From the NCBI RefSeq assembly GCF_004343305.1, contig NZ_SMAF01000001.1, forward strand, positions 62,001-126,000: DNA of 64,000 bases, written 5' to 3'. The position numbers and the translations under genes are program-made. This document shows positions 8,809 through 13,151 of this stretch, in pieces (the first letter of the stretch is position 1; each line of letters starts with the position of its first letter). The notes under the pieces were generated by a model. That model was not told the origin of the DNA and made no database searches. It was given only the letters and a program-made list of their open reading frames with translations. The DNA is from Pseudofulvimonas gallinarii. Its GTDB lineage: Bacteria > Pseudomonadota > Gammaproteobacteria > Xanthomonadales > UBA2363.

Positions 8809-10005
8809 TCAGACGGCTTCGAAGATGCCGGCTGCGCCCATGCCGGTACCGATGCACATGGTGACCATGCCGTACTTCTGCTGGCGACGGCGCAGGCCGT
8901 GTACCAGCGTCGCGGCGCGGATGGCACCGGTAGCGCCCAGCGGATGGCCCAGTGCGATGGCGCCACCGAGGGGATTGACCTTGGACGGATCGAGACCGAG
9001 ATCCTTGATCACCGCCAGCGCCTGTGCGGCGAAGGCTTCGTTGAGTTCGATCCAGTCGAGCTGGTCCAGGGTGATACCGGCCTGCTTCAACGCCTTCGGG
9101 ATCGCTTCCTTCGGACCGATGCCCATGATCTCCGGCGGCACGCCGGCGACCGAGAAGCTGACGAAGCGGGCCAGTGGCGTCAGGCCGTAGTCCTTGATCG
9201 CCTGCTCGCTGGCCAGCAGCAGCGCGCCGGCACCGTCGGACATCTGCGAGGCGTTGCCGGCGGTGACGCTGCCACCGGCGCGGAACACGGTACGCAGTTT
9301 CGCCAGGCCTTCCGGCGAGGTGTCGGCGCGCGGGCCTTCATCGGTGTCGATGATCCGCGAGTCGGTCCTGCTGCTGCGCGAAGCCAGGTCGGGGTAGTGG
9401 TCGTCGAGCTGGAACGGGGTGATCTCGTCCTTGAACTCGCCGCCGGCGATGGCGGCCAGGGCCTTCTGGTGGCTGGCCAGGGCGAAGGCGTCCTGCTCTT
9501 CGCGGCTGACGTTCCACTGTTCGGCGACCTTCTCGGCGGTGATGCCCATGCCGTAGGCAATGCCGATGTTCTCGTCGGTGAAGAAGGCCGGATTCATCGC
9601 CACCTTGTGGCCCATCATCGGCACCATCGACATCGATTCGGTGCCGCCGGCCAGCATCAGGTCGGCGTCACCGGTGCGGATGCGGTCGGCGGCCATGGCG
9701 ATGGCCTGCACGCCGGACGAACAGAAGCGGTTGATGGTGACCGCCGAAACCGTGTGCGGCAGGCCGGCCAGCAGCACGCCGATGCGGGCCACGTTCATGC
9801 CTTGCTCGGCTTCGGGCATGGCACAGCCGATCACCGCGTCATCGATGCGATTGACGTCGATGCCCGGTGCCTGGGCGATCACCGCCTTGAGGACATGCGC
9901 CAGCAGGTCGTCGGGGCGGGTGTTGCGGAAGGCGCCACGCGGTGCCTTGGCGACCGGCGTACGGGTGGCGGCGACGATGTAGGCGTCCTGGATCTGTCTG
10001 CTCAT
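8809..10005 (-). CDS. acetyl-CoA C-acyltransferase (3-ketoacyl-CoA thiolase)
   Basis: 398 residues, usual thiolase length. The acyl-accepting cysteine is Cys95 in NRFCSSG (92-98); other hallmarks are NEAFAAQ (about 332-338), the catalytic His in GHPLGATG (about 361-368) and the second catalytic Cys in CIGTGMGAA close to the C terminus. It cleaves 3-ketoacyl-CoA with CoA to give acetyl-CoA and a shortened acyl-CoA, the last step of beta-oxidation, in the cytoplasm. It follows the multifunctional enzyme gene by 19 bp on the same strand, so both are on one transcript, ended by the hairpin at 8719-8742. Confidence 0.95.
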   Translation of the reverse strand: MSRQIQDAYIVAATRTPVAKAPRGAFRNTRPDDLLAHVLKAVIAQAPGIDVNRIDDAVIGCAMPEAEQGMNVARIGVLLAGLPHTVSAVTINRFCSSGVQAIAMAADRIRTGDADLMLAGGTESMSMVPMMGHKVAMNPAFFTDENIGIAYGMGITAEKVAEQWNVSREEQDAFALASHQKALAAIAGGEFKDEITPFQLDDHYPDLASRSSRTDSRIIDTDEGPRADTSPEGLAKLRTVFRAGGSVTAGNASQMSDGAGALLLASEQAIKDYGLTPLARFVSFSVAGVPPEIMGIGPKEAIPKALKQAGITLDQLDWIELNEAFAAQALAVIKDLGLDPSKVNPLGGAIALGHPLGATGAIRAATLVHGLRRRQQKYGMVTMCIGTGMGAAGIFEAV

Positions 10006-10024: not shown

Positions 10025-12397
10025 TCAGTTGCGCAGCGGCTTGCCGGTGGTCATGGTGTGGGCGATGCGGGCCTGGGTTTTTTCCGTGCGCGCCAGTTCC
10101 ACAAAATGCTTGCGCTCCAGGTCCAGCAGCCATTGCTCGTCGACCTGTGATCCGCGCTCGATGCGGCCACCGCACAAGGTGTCGGCGATGCGCGCGGCGA
10201 TGTCGAAATCGTGTTCGGAAATGAAGCGGCCTTCGATCATGTTGGCCAGCATCGACTTGAAGGTGGCGCTGCCGACATCGCCGGCGACGGTGATGTCGCG
10301 GGCCGGCAGCGGCGGCCGGTGGCCGGCTTCGGCCAGTGAAGCCGCCACCTGCTTCGCCACGTACAACAGTTCGTGCGCGTTGTAGACGACAACATCGGCG
10401 TCGCGCAGCAGGCCCATGCGCTTCGCGTCCAGCGCACTGCCGCCGACCTTGGCCATGGCGATGGTCTCGAACACGCGCTTGAGGCCTTCGAAGGGATCGT
10501 TCGGGAACTGTCTTGACGCGCGCAATGCCAGTTCCTTGAGGCCGCCACCGGCCGGCAGCAGGCCGACGCCGGCCTCGACCAGGCCAATGTAGCTTTCCAG
10601 CGCGGCGACGGTGCGAGTGGCGTGCATCTGGAACTCGCAGCCGCCGCCGAAGCACATGCCGCGCACGGCGGCAACGGTCGGCACCAGCGAATGCTTGAGT
10701 GCCATCGAGGTCTTCTGGAAGTTGTCGACCATCTTCTCGAAATCGTCGAAGCGGCCGGCCTGCAGCAGGCCCAGTGCGCCCTTGAGATCGGCGCCGGCGG
10801 AGAACGGTTCGCCGGTCTGCCAGATCACCAGCGCCTTGAGCTGGCGCTCGGCGATGCGCACGCATTCCTGCAGGCCGTCCAGCACCGCGTCATTGACGGT
10901 GTTCATCTTGGTCTTGAAGGAGACGATGCCAACGCCATCGTCGCCCAGCGTCCACAGGCGGACGCCGTCGTTCTCCCAGACCGTCATGCCCGGGTCGAAA
11001 CGCTCGCCGAGCAGCGGATCGGGGAACAGCTGGCGTGCATAGACCGGATGGGTCGAGCGGGGCAGGGCCTTGCCGGCATTCGGCGACCACGAACCGTCGC
11101 CACCGTGCACGCCGTCGCGACCATCCAGCACCCACGCCGGCAGCGGCGCGTCGCTCATGGCCTTGCCGGCCTTGATGTCCTCGTCGATCCAGGCGGCGAC
11201 CTGCTTCCAGCCGGCGGCCTGCCAGGTTTCGAAGGGTCCCAGCTTCCAGCCGTAACCCCAGCGGATGGCGAAATCGACGTCGCGGGCGGTATCGGCGATG
11301 TCGCCCAGGTGAAAGGCGGTGTAGTGGAAAAGATCGCGGAAGACCGCCCACAGGAACTGCGCCTGCGGATCGCTGCTGGCACGGAGCTTCGCGAACTTCT
11401 CGGCCGGGTCACGGATCGCCAGGATGCCGGCGACCTCGTCGCTGGCCTTGCCGTCGGCAAGGCGGAAATCCTGCTTTGCCAGATCAAGGACGTGGATGTC
11501 CTTGCCGGTCTTGCGGAAGAAGCCGGCGCCGGTCTTGGCGCCGAGCGCACCCTTGTCGATCAGGGCCTGCAGCCACGTCGGCGCCTTGAAGTAGCGGTGC
11601 CACGGATCATCCGGCAGGGTGTCGGCCATGGTCTTGATGACGTGCGCCATGGTGTCCAGGCCGACCACGTCCGCCGTGCGGTAGGTGGCGCTCTTGGGAC
11701 GGCCGATGGCCGGCCCGGTCAGTGCGTCGACGACATCGAAGCCCAGGCCTGATTCCTGCGTGTGGTGCATGGTCGCCAGGATCGAGAAGACGCCGATACG
11801 GTTGCCGATGAAGTTCGGCGTGTCCTTGGCGCGCACCACGCCCTTGCCGAGGTTCGTGGTCAGGAAGGTTTCAAGACCGTCGAGCACGGCCGGATCGGTG
11901 CCGGTGCACGGGATCAGCTCGACCAGGTGCATGTAGCGCGGCGGATTGAAGAAGTGCACGCCGCAGAAGCGCGGCCGCAGCTGGGCCGGGATGGCGTCGG
12001 CCAGACCATTGATGGACAGGCCGGAGGTATTGCTGGCAAGCACTGCAGTTTCAGACACATACGGGGCGATCTTCACGTAAAGGTCGCGCTTCCAGTCCAT
12101 CCGTTCGGCGATCGCCTCGATGACCAGGTCGCAGTCACGGAGCAGCTCCAGGTGCTGGTCGTAGTTGGCGGCGGTAATCGCGCCCAGGCGCGAGGGCTCG
12201 GCCAGGGGAGCGGGGGACAGCTTGGCAAGGCCTTGGATCGCCCTGTCGACTATTCCGTTCGGCTTGCCTTCTTTGGCCGGCAGGTCAAACAGGACGACAT
12301 CGACATTGGCGTTGGCCAGGTGCGCGGCGATCTGTGCGCCCATCACGCCGGCGCCCAGCACGGCCGCCTTGCGTATGGTCAGACGAGGAGTGGTCAT
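10025..12397 (-). CDS. 3-hydroxyacyl-CoA dehydrogenase / enoyl-CoA hydratase (FadN-like)
   Basis: 790 residues. The dehydrogenase half comes first, with the NAD motif GAGVMG at 15-20 and VHFFNPPRYMHLVELI in the C-terminal dimerisation part, and a crotonase domain follows (about 480-700, with PFSAGADLKGALG and the oxyanion block RGMCFGGGCEFQMHA). This order is that of FadN-type enzymes and is the reverse of E. coli FadB. The ATG at 12397 was preferred over an in-frame TTG at 12409 because GGGGA lies five bases before it. It hydrates enoyl-CoA and oxidises 3-hydroxyacyl-CoA; the thiolase encoded 19 bp downstream completes the cycle. Confidence 0.93.
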   Translation of the reverse strand: MTTPRLTIRKAAVLGAGVMGAQIAAHLANANVDVVLFDLPAKEGKPNGIVDRAIQGLAKLSPAPLAEPSRLGAITAANYDQHLELLRDCDLVIEAIAERMDWKRDLYVKIAPYVSETAVLASNTSGLSINGLADAIPAQLRPRFCGVHFFNPPRYMHLVELIPCTGTDPAVLDGLETFLTTNLGKGVVRAKDTPNFIGNRIGVFSILATMHHTQESGLGFDVVDALTGPAIGRPKSATYRTADVVGLDTMAHVIKTMADTLPDDPWHRYFKAPTWLQALIDKGALGAKTGAGFFRKTGKDIHVLDLAKQDFRLADGKASDEVAGILAIRDPAEKFAKLRASSDPQAQFLWAVFRDLFHYTAFHLGDIADTARDVDFAIRWGYGWKLGPFETWQAAGWKQVAAWIDEDIKAGKAMSDAPLPAWVLDGRDGVHGGDGSWSPNAGKALPRSTHPVYARQLFPDPLLGERFDPGMTVWENDGVRLWTLGDDGVGIVSFKTKMNTVNDAVLDGLQECVRIAERQLKALVIWQTGEPFSAGADLKGALGLLQAGRFDDFEKMVDNFQKTSMALKHSLVPTVAAVRGMCFGGGCEFQMHATRTVAALESYIGLVEAGVGLLPAGGGLKELALRASRQFPNDPFEGLKRVFETIAMAKVGGSALDAKRMGLLRDADVVVYNAHELLYVAKQVAASLAEAGHRPPLPARDITVAGDVGSATFKSMLANMIEGRFISEHDFDIAARIADTLCGGRIERGSQVDEQWLLDLERKHFVELARTEKTQARIAHTMTTGKPLRN

Positions 12398-12507
12398 CGA
12401 AATCCCCAAGGGTCAGTTGGTTACGGGTGAAACGGATGGGTGTCGGAAATGGATGGTCCGGATGCGCCCGTACGGGCCGGCCCTTTCCGGCTGGACGGGC
12501 CACCTGA

Positions 12508-12525
12508 CCATACTCAACAGTATGG
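12508..12525. promoter_or_regulatory. perfect palindrome, candidate operator of the beta-oxidation operon
   Basis: CCATACT-CAAC-AGTATGG has two perfect 7-bp arms. It lies 111 bp upstream of the FadN-like start and overlaps the best available -10 for that operon. Size and symmetry fit a TetR- or GntR-type fatty-acid repressor site. It differs from the E. coli FadR and Pseudomonas PsrA consensus sites as I know them, so the regulator is unknown. Confidence 0.5.
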
Positions 12526-12554
12526 ATGCTCGCAGCAACACCGTTGCCGGTCAA

Positions 12555-12591
12555 GTTGAGACGCCAGTCACACAGCACGTCCAGTCTCAAC
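12555..12591. repeat. inverted repeat GTTGAGAC / GTCTCAAC with 21-bp spacing
   Basis: Two perfect 8-bp arms (12555-12562 and 12584-12591) are separated by 21 bp, so their starts are 29 bp apart, close to three helical turns. The core CTCAAC also occurs inside the neighbouring palindrome at 12513. It could be a second site for the same regulator. Confidence 0.4.
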
Positions 12592-12634
12592 GCTACAGTG
12601 CGCGGGCAGGGGAGGCGCGAGATGGGACCTCACA

Positions 12635-12656
12635 AATCACGGCTAAGCCTGTGATT
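12635..12656. promoter_or_regulatory. near-perfect 22-bp palindrome upstream of ndk
   Basis: AATCAC-GGCT-A-AGCC-T-GTGATT is symmetric except for one extra T in the right arm. It ends 70 bp before the ndk start codon and immediately ahead of the only plausible ndk -10. It may be an operator or an RNA hairpin; no regulator is evident. Confidence 0.4.
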
Positions 12657-12725
12657 CCACCGGCAATGCTGTTAGATTAGCGGCCCGCTTTCGCATCCCC
12701 ACCCTACTAGGTATCTGGAGTTTTC

Positions 12726-13151
12726 ATGGCGCTGGAACGCACCCTGTCGATCATCAAGCCCGACGCTGTTGCAAAGAATGTCATCGGCGAAATCTACACC
12801 CGTTTCGAAAAGGCCGGTTTGAAGATTGTCGCCGCCAAGATGAAGCAGCTGACCCGCGAGGAAGCGGAAGGTTTCTATGCCGTCCATCGCGAGCGTCCGT
12901 TCTTCGGCGCGCTTGTGGAATTCATGATTTCCGGGCCGGTGATGATCCAGGCGCTGGAAGGCGATGACGCCATCGCCAGGAATCGCGAGCTGATGGGCGC
13001 GACCAACCCGAAGGATGCGGCTCCGGGCACCATCCGCGCGGACTTCGCGGATTCCATCGACGCCAATGCCGTGCATGGTTCGGATGGCCCGGAGACGGCG
13101 AAGAACGAGATCGCCTACTTCTTCACCGAAGCAGAGCTGGCCTCGCGCTGA
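12726..13151 (+). CDS. ndk: nucleoside diphosphate kinase
   Basis: 141 residues, the typical length. The start [15 protein letters not shown] and the phosphorylated histidine His117 in [10 protein letters not shown] (114-123) identify it with certainty. It transfers the gamma phosphate between nucleoside triphosphates and diphosphates through the phospho-histidine, balancing NTP pools in the cytoplasm. TGGAG lies seven bases before the ATG. The rlmN gene follows after only seven bases, and the block continues through pilF, rodZ, yfgM, bamB and der in the order usual for xanthomonads. Confidence 0.98.

Follow-up and report, generated by a model that had tools for sequence, protein, structure and literature searches.

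The fadB and fadA genes of Pseudofulvimonas gallinarii are preceded by three closely spaced inverted repeats, raising the question of which regulator, if any, acts there. The window considered here, a 64,000-nucleotide stretch of contig NZ_SMAF01000001.1 (assembly GCF_004343305.1), carries fadB and ndk on opposite strands with the repeats in the gap between them. A first-pass annotation had judged chance an unlikely source of so dense a cluster and had suggested that neither FadR nor PsrA but a different regulator of fatty-acid metabolism may act here. The features of the locus are as follows.

8809-10005, minus strand: fadA (acetyl-CoA acyltransferase, thiolase), second gene, after fadB.
10025-12397, minus strand: fadB (3-hydroxyacyl-CoA dehydrogenase / enoyl-CoA hydratase), start taken from the tblastn alignment with relatives.
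12398-12725: fadB-ndk gap, 328 bp.
12508-12525, no strand: repeat 1, predicted TfmR operator CCATAC-N6-GTATGG, 111 bp from the fadB start codon.
12555-12591, no strand: repeat 2, GTTGAGAC-N21-GTCTCAAC.
12635-12656, no strand: repeat 3, AATCAC...GTGATT, right half alone conserved.
12644-12655, plus strand: element TAAGCCTGTGAT before ndk, shared letter for letter by all three genus genomes.
12726-13151, plus strand: ndk (product Ndk), divergent from fadB.

The fadB product is a FadB-type protein with 3HCDH and enoyl-CoA hydratase domains, and fadB is proposed to be gene 1 of the target operon. All three repeats are found where the annotation had placed them. The arms of repeat 1 are CCATACT (12508-12514) and AGTATGG (12519-12525) with a loop of 4, and those of repeat 2 are GTTGAGAC (12555-12562) and GTCTCAAC (12584-12591) with a loop of 21. 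Repeat 3 has arms AATCAC (12635-12640) and GTGATT (12651-12656), the 10 nt between them reading GGCT-A-AGCC-T. CTCAAC does occur in three places, at 12513, at 12586 and as its complement at 12555. Scans around the fadB-ndk gap returned no sigma-70-like promoter and no intrinsic terminator.

Comparison within the genus takes the three repeats apart. The sample consisted of the window genome (G000) and two congeners, G001 and G002, in both of which fadB and ndk face each other across a gap of similar length. The three-genome alignment of the gap is poor except at the palindrome and at TAAGC...CTGTGAT before ndk. CATAC-N6-GTATG lies at the matching gap position in all three genomes with a differing N6: the palindrome reads CATACCATGGCGTATG in both congeners versus CATACTCAACAGTATG in the window, and the spacer is CATGGC in the former and TCAACA in the latter. 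Judged from this alignment, CCATAC is the half-site that is conserved, the two halves being separated by N6, and the adjoining T/A belongs to the variable spacer. The first motif guess, ATACT-N4-AGTAT, had been found in none of the other loci, nor in the 500 bp before fadB in 80 named loci. This absence gave a seeming lack of conservation until the congener alignment pointed to CATAC-N6-GTATG as the true unit. Allowing 3 mismatches genome-wide, ATACT-N4-AGTAT gave 172 sites against 136 for the control, which is uninformative.

Lack of conservation in close relatives had been named as the result that would speak against the repeats, and the outcome is divided: repeat 1 is kept in three of three genus genomes, repeat 2 is not conserved, and repeat 3 is kept in its right half only. 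The idea of a single three-part unit is not supported, with repeat 2 found only in its own genome among the loci scanned and the right half of repeat 3 belonging to an ndk element. Repeat 2 is absent from all other genomes' loci scanned and may be a chance palindrome. The conserved TAAGC...CTGTGAT block contains the right half of repeat 3, and TAAGCCTGTGAT lies some 70-80 bp before the ndk start codon; we infer that this element is probably part of the ndk promoter.

Separately, the congeners carry a perfect repeat of their own, ACAGTGTC-N12-GACACTGT, in the fadB-ndk gap about where the window has repeat 2 (L004 2069-2096 and L017 1350-1377, in G001 and G002). It occurs once in each congener genome and not at all in that of the window, and is perhaps a second operator.

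The palindrome of repeat 1 has a counterpart elsewhere. In all three genus genomes it also occupies the gap that separates a gene of the TetR family from a divergent pair, an alpha/beta hydrolase gene and fadE, a gene order that corresponds to the tfmR-mhpC-fadE locus of Xanthomonas citri. In the window's own genome, tfmR with mhpC-fadE (G000:C8; loci L033, L141) is accompanied by the same site, the tfmR|mhpC gap carrying TCCATACGCATCAGTATGGA, which agrees with the window site in 17 of 20 letters; both congeners have a site in this gap as well. The earlier proposal to look for CCATACT/AGTATGG ahead of other acyl-CoA genes pointed at the right repeat, which recurs at a second acyl-CoA locus, tfmR|mhpC-fadE, both in this genome and in others across the order. 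Before mhpC, the operator overlaps a -10-like CATACT formed by its left half-site, 17 bp after TTGACC or TTGACG, in all three genus genomes.

The association extends well beyond the genus. A TfmR homologue is present in 60 of 61 relatives, and mhpC and/or fadE are divergent from tfmR in 49 of 50 loci. ATAC-N6-GTAT is present in 28 of 30 tfmR loci (none in L154 or L166), and the upstream 500 bp of tfmR contain the strict form YMATAC-N6-GTATKR in 45 of 50, the exceptions being L154, L166, L246, L250 and L253. A matrix score above 12 was obtained at tfmR in 19 of 20 named genomes, with none in Tahibacter soli. In G006, where a long distance separates mhpC-fadE from tfmR, the strict site accompanies mhpC and tfmR has none. 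The genomes of X. axonopodis DSM 3585, X. hortorum and S. maltophilia IAM 12423 each have two strict sites in all, both at tfmR and 36 bp apart, with 0 for the reversed control. The 61 genomes together contain 180 strict sites and 39 matches to the reversed control, much of this background coming from a few families (control 6 exceeds pattern 3 in G020; G009 and G027 have many of both). With at most one mismatch, CATAC-N6-GTATG has 19, 10 and 12 places in the three genus genomes versus 11, 4 and 1 when reversed. Perfect copies besides that at fadB number one in each congener and three in the own genome. Of these 41 places, those in the own genome look mostly like noise (19, with 11 for the control), and the 41 were used only if matrix-scored too.

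TfmR has been studied in Xanthomonas. The X. citri protein (XAC3052) is reported to repress mhpC/fadE 50- to 100-fold, to bind the mhpC/fadE promoter with a KD of ~87 nM, and to be released by long-chain fatty acids, the last reported for the fadE/mhpC promoter only (PMC6637906). The same source describes fadH as a direct target whose promoter is bound, and the XAC2014-fadB1-fadA promoter as bound in vitro and not in vivo. In X. oryzae, direct activation of rpfG and hrpX by TfmR is described (PMC11173191), so TfmR is not only a repressor. The tfmR locus of the window's genome resembles that of X. citri in having tfmR divergent to mhpC-fadE, a TetR_N domain and a palindrome in the gap. The difference lies at fadBA, which in X. 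citri sits behind its own tetR, XAC2014, whereas in the window it stands alone with a TfmR-type site. Term searches of the PMC6637906 main text and of PMC11173191, and searches of the open literature, yielded no TfmR operator sequence. What would be new is hence the operator; the regulator and the kind of system are already known.

Repeat 1 is very probably a TfmR operator, through which fadBA would have moved under TfmR control after loss of a PsrA-like regulator. The suspicion that something other than FadR or PsrA regulates fatty-acid genes here is probably right, with TfmR as the candidate. TfmR, a TetR-family protein encoded elsewhere in the same genome beside mhpC-fadE, would bind as a dimer to the two half-sites of CCATAC-N6-GTATGG upstream of fadBA and block RNA polymerase, thereby repressing fadBA together with mhpC-fadE. 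Long-chain fatty acids would then release TfmR, turning on dehydrogenation by FadE and the later FadBA steps together. In this genus, from which the PsrA-like tetR has gone, TfmR would have taken its place at fadBA. What the sequences show is a conserved site that recurs at the tfmR locus, and a missing PsrA-like gene; binding, repression and fatty-acid response in this organism are predicted by analogy with X. citri. Several findings weigh against this reading: the activator role in X. oryzae, the binding of the X. citri XAC2014-fadB1-fadA promoter in vitro only, the five tfmR loci that have no strict site, the lack of a strict site at fadH in the Xanthomonas genomes searched, the unplaced fadB promoter of the window, and the tetR-bearing L029, whose matrix score of 19.1 comes near the tetR-less range. 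TfmR ties fatty-acid breakdown to virulence in Xanthomonas, and with a specific pattern predicted for its operator, TfmR targets can be sought in the genome of any member of the Xanthomonadales.

It is unlikely that another TetR-type regulator shares CATAC-N6-GTATG and also controls the tfmR locus. There are many TetR proteins per genome, and the X. citri tfmR promoter is reported to be unresponsive to tfmR deletion (PMC6637906), both of which leave room for such a protein. However, in the 45 of 50 loci, which span the order, the motif stays with the tfmR|mhpC/fadE gap, the three named genomes with paired sites have no other strict site, and the promoter in question is the one that X. citri TfmR binds.

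Still less likely is that repeats 1-3 are chance palindromes or RNA hairpins without regulatory meaning. Dinucleotide shuffling of the 149 bp produced two perfect repeats, with arms of at least 7 and loops of at most 25, 12 times in 1000, and shuffling of the full 328-bp gap did so 85 times in 1000; at least two such repeats occur in 7.6% of 149-bp stretches across the window. The repeats are real, but their density, on which the first-pass annotation had leaned, is weak evidence against chance. An RNA element at the repeats was rejected, the folded strand being only modestly more stable than shuffles (z -2.24) and no Rfam family reaching its gathering score; both results suit meaningless hairpins. 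Against this stands repeat 1, for which chance is already unlikely: it is conserved in position and half-site and shared with tfmR. For repeat 2 the chance reading may well be correct.

Action of PsrA or FadR on the repeats is the least probable alternative, despite the shared pathway and the PsrA-like regulators found before fadB in relatives: FadR (GntR), whose operator consensus is CTGGTCNGACCAG-like, has matches only with 2-3 mismatches (12375, 12491) and none at the repeats with up to 3, while the PsrA pattern [GC]AAAC-N2-4-GTTT[GC] is absent within 500 bp upstream of fadB, its one 2-mismatch match near the gap (12429) is at chance level, and a PsrA-like gene is missing from the window's genome. 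These pattern searches agree with the annotation that the repeats match neither consensus. The PsrA-like pattern searched corresponds to the reported recognition sequence G/CAAAC(N2-4)GTTTG/C (PMC10304680).

The probable TfmR operator at fadB is best appreciated against what other genomes have in its place. Smlt2053 of S. maltophilia and XAC2014 of X. citri are reported as PsrA-like TetR regulators in an operon with fadB-fadA (PMC10304680); they regulate the orthologous fadBA from between ndk and fadB, and it is this gene that the window's genome, unlike theirs, is missing. Among the best-scoring 80 named fadB loci of a longer list, a PsrA-like tetR lies just upstream of fadB in all 80, and ndk is visible beyond it in 78. 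The gene is absent before fadB in the window, in the two congeners and in G029, G058 and G037 of another family, whose fadB-ndk distance is 330-351 bp (G058 is only 77% complete; its fadB-ndk gap is intact). Whole-genome searches of these six tetR-less genomes for a PsrA-like TetR gave only partial matches of ~50-90 residues at the N-terminal end. In G000 none was found at 1e-5 (E 3.4e-4), and the other five genomes ranged from 9.5e-8 to 3.9e-6, compared with positive controls of 1.7e-109 (G022), 4.2e-72 (G047) and 3.2e-71 (G031).

The fadB gaps were scored with a 20-column matrix built from 42 tfmR sites in 25 of 27 relatives' loci, with the window's genus left out of training and the second TetR-less family kept in. 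Scoring covered 105 of 143 rows, the 38 without ndk or fadB in the stretch having been dropped. Eight rows lack tetR and represent six genomes (the window equals L002, and L013 equals L202); 97 carry it (78 from named genomes and 19 others), near relatives included. All six tetR-less genomes have a fadB-gap site, scoring 20.2-29.3 at 76-125 bp from the fadB start. The window site, which has the operator pattern, scores 29.3 with this matrix from tfmR loci outside its genus. The best of 3000 shuffled gaps scored 18.0. The maximum among the 97 tetR-bearing rows is 19.1 (L029), near the lowest tetR-less score of 20.2; seven further rows, from Stenotrophomonas and kin, reach 13.9-15.6, and no remaining row exceeds 9.7. 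The sites of L029 and the Stenotrophomonas group are on the ndk side, upstream of tetR, which suggests that partial TfmR control may predate loss of tetR. In the second family, the right half-site at fadB forms TATAGT or TATGCT, 17 or 18 bp after TTGTCG, TTGCCG or TTGCCC. The window has no good -35 at a matching distance and the scan was empty, so its fadB promoter is not convincingly placed.

A FadB tree of 46 rows (one of 47 picked was too short and was left out) explains the TetR-less state with two changes at the least, and not one of 200 bootstrap trees can do with a single change. Taken alone, the well-supported branches of this tree would still allow a single origin. We regard it as an even proposition that the window's genus and the second family independently lost the PsrA-like repressor of the ndk-tetR-fadB-fadA cluster, and that each time fadBA came under the distant TfmR through an operator 76-125 bp from the fadB start. 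TfmR would then coordinate fadE with fadBA and, in some genomes, also with fadH and lipase-like genes. Replacement of regulators between lineages is also described for the FadP/PsrA regulons of Proteobacteria, likewise TetR-family control of fatty-acid degradation; FadP differs in being described for betaproteobacteria (PMC5343134). The takeover of fadBA would be a simple and testable example of how regulation is rewired once a local repressor has been lost.

The same pattern marks several genes that may belong to a wider TfmR regulon. The own genome has five strict sites and 0 of the reversed pattern: at fadBA, at tfmR/mhpC, at an HlyIII-family gene, at a second alpha/beta hydrolase and in a dus-like frame. 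The last (G000:C26:18670) was rejected as an operator, since it lies inside the frame, scores 13.8 and is probably due to chance. Sites at new genes in the own genome, and one in G011, are listed here.

G000:C15:5959-5976 (L038 1499-1518): TfmR-type site overlapping the start codon of the second alpha/beta hydrolase gene; score 30.4, the best of those scored in the own genome.
G000:C10:42928-42945 (L209 697-716): TfmR-type site, score 27.9, upstream of a HlyIII-family membrane protein gene (PF03006, E 5.7e-44).
L290 1501-1518 (G011): fadH homologue with a strict site 14 bp ahead of its start.

The HlyIII and second-hydrolase sites have no strict counterpart in the two congeners. The G011 fadH (2,4-dienoyl-CoA reductase) homologue matches PDB 1ps9 with E 5.8e-196 and falls below the cut-offs of NCBIfam models; in the Xanthomonas genomes searched, the strict form of the pattern, the only form used, is absent at fadH. 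The G011 fadH site and the G006 mhpC site fit the TfmR reading.

TfmR-type sites also precede a secreted lipase-like protein in G002 (L131), G001 (L231) and G037 (L281), those of G001 and G002 with one mismatch. The proteins carry an FVHGTGKQT motif, with HSNGG in L131 and L231, and Pfam DUF7379 is below cut-off. The occurrence of lipase-linked sites in two families argues for a wider TfmR regulon. Further sites lie before GDSL-like hydrolases in G029 and G058, with PF00657 just above its cut-off.

A last observation concerns ndk itself. In L008, L029, L075, L077, L085, L100, L107 and L115, a GCTAAGCCC/GCTAAACCC-type sequence just before ndk carries a CCCGCG...CGCGGG-like hairpin and a T run. 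This arrangement is absent in the window; where present it is terminator-like and is possibly a leader or attenuator.
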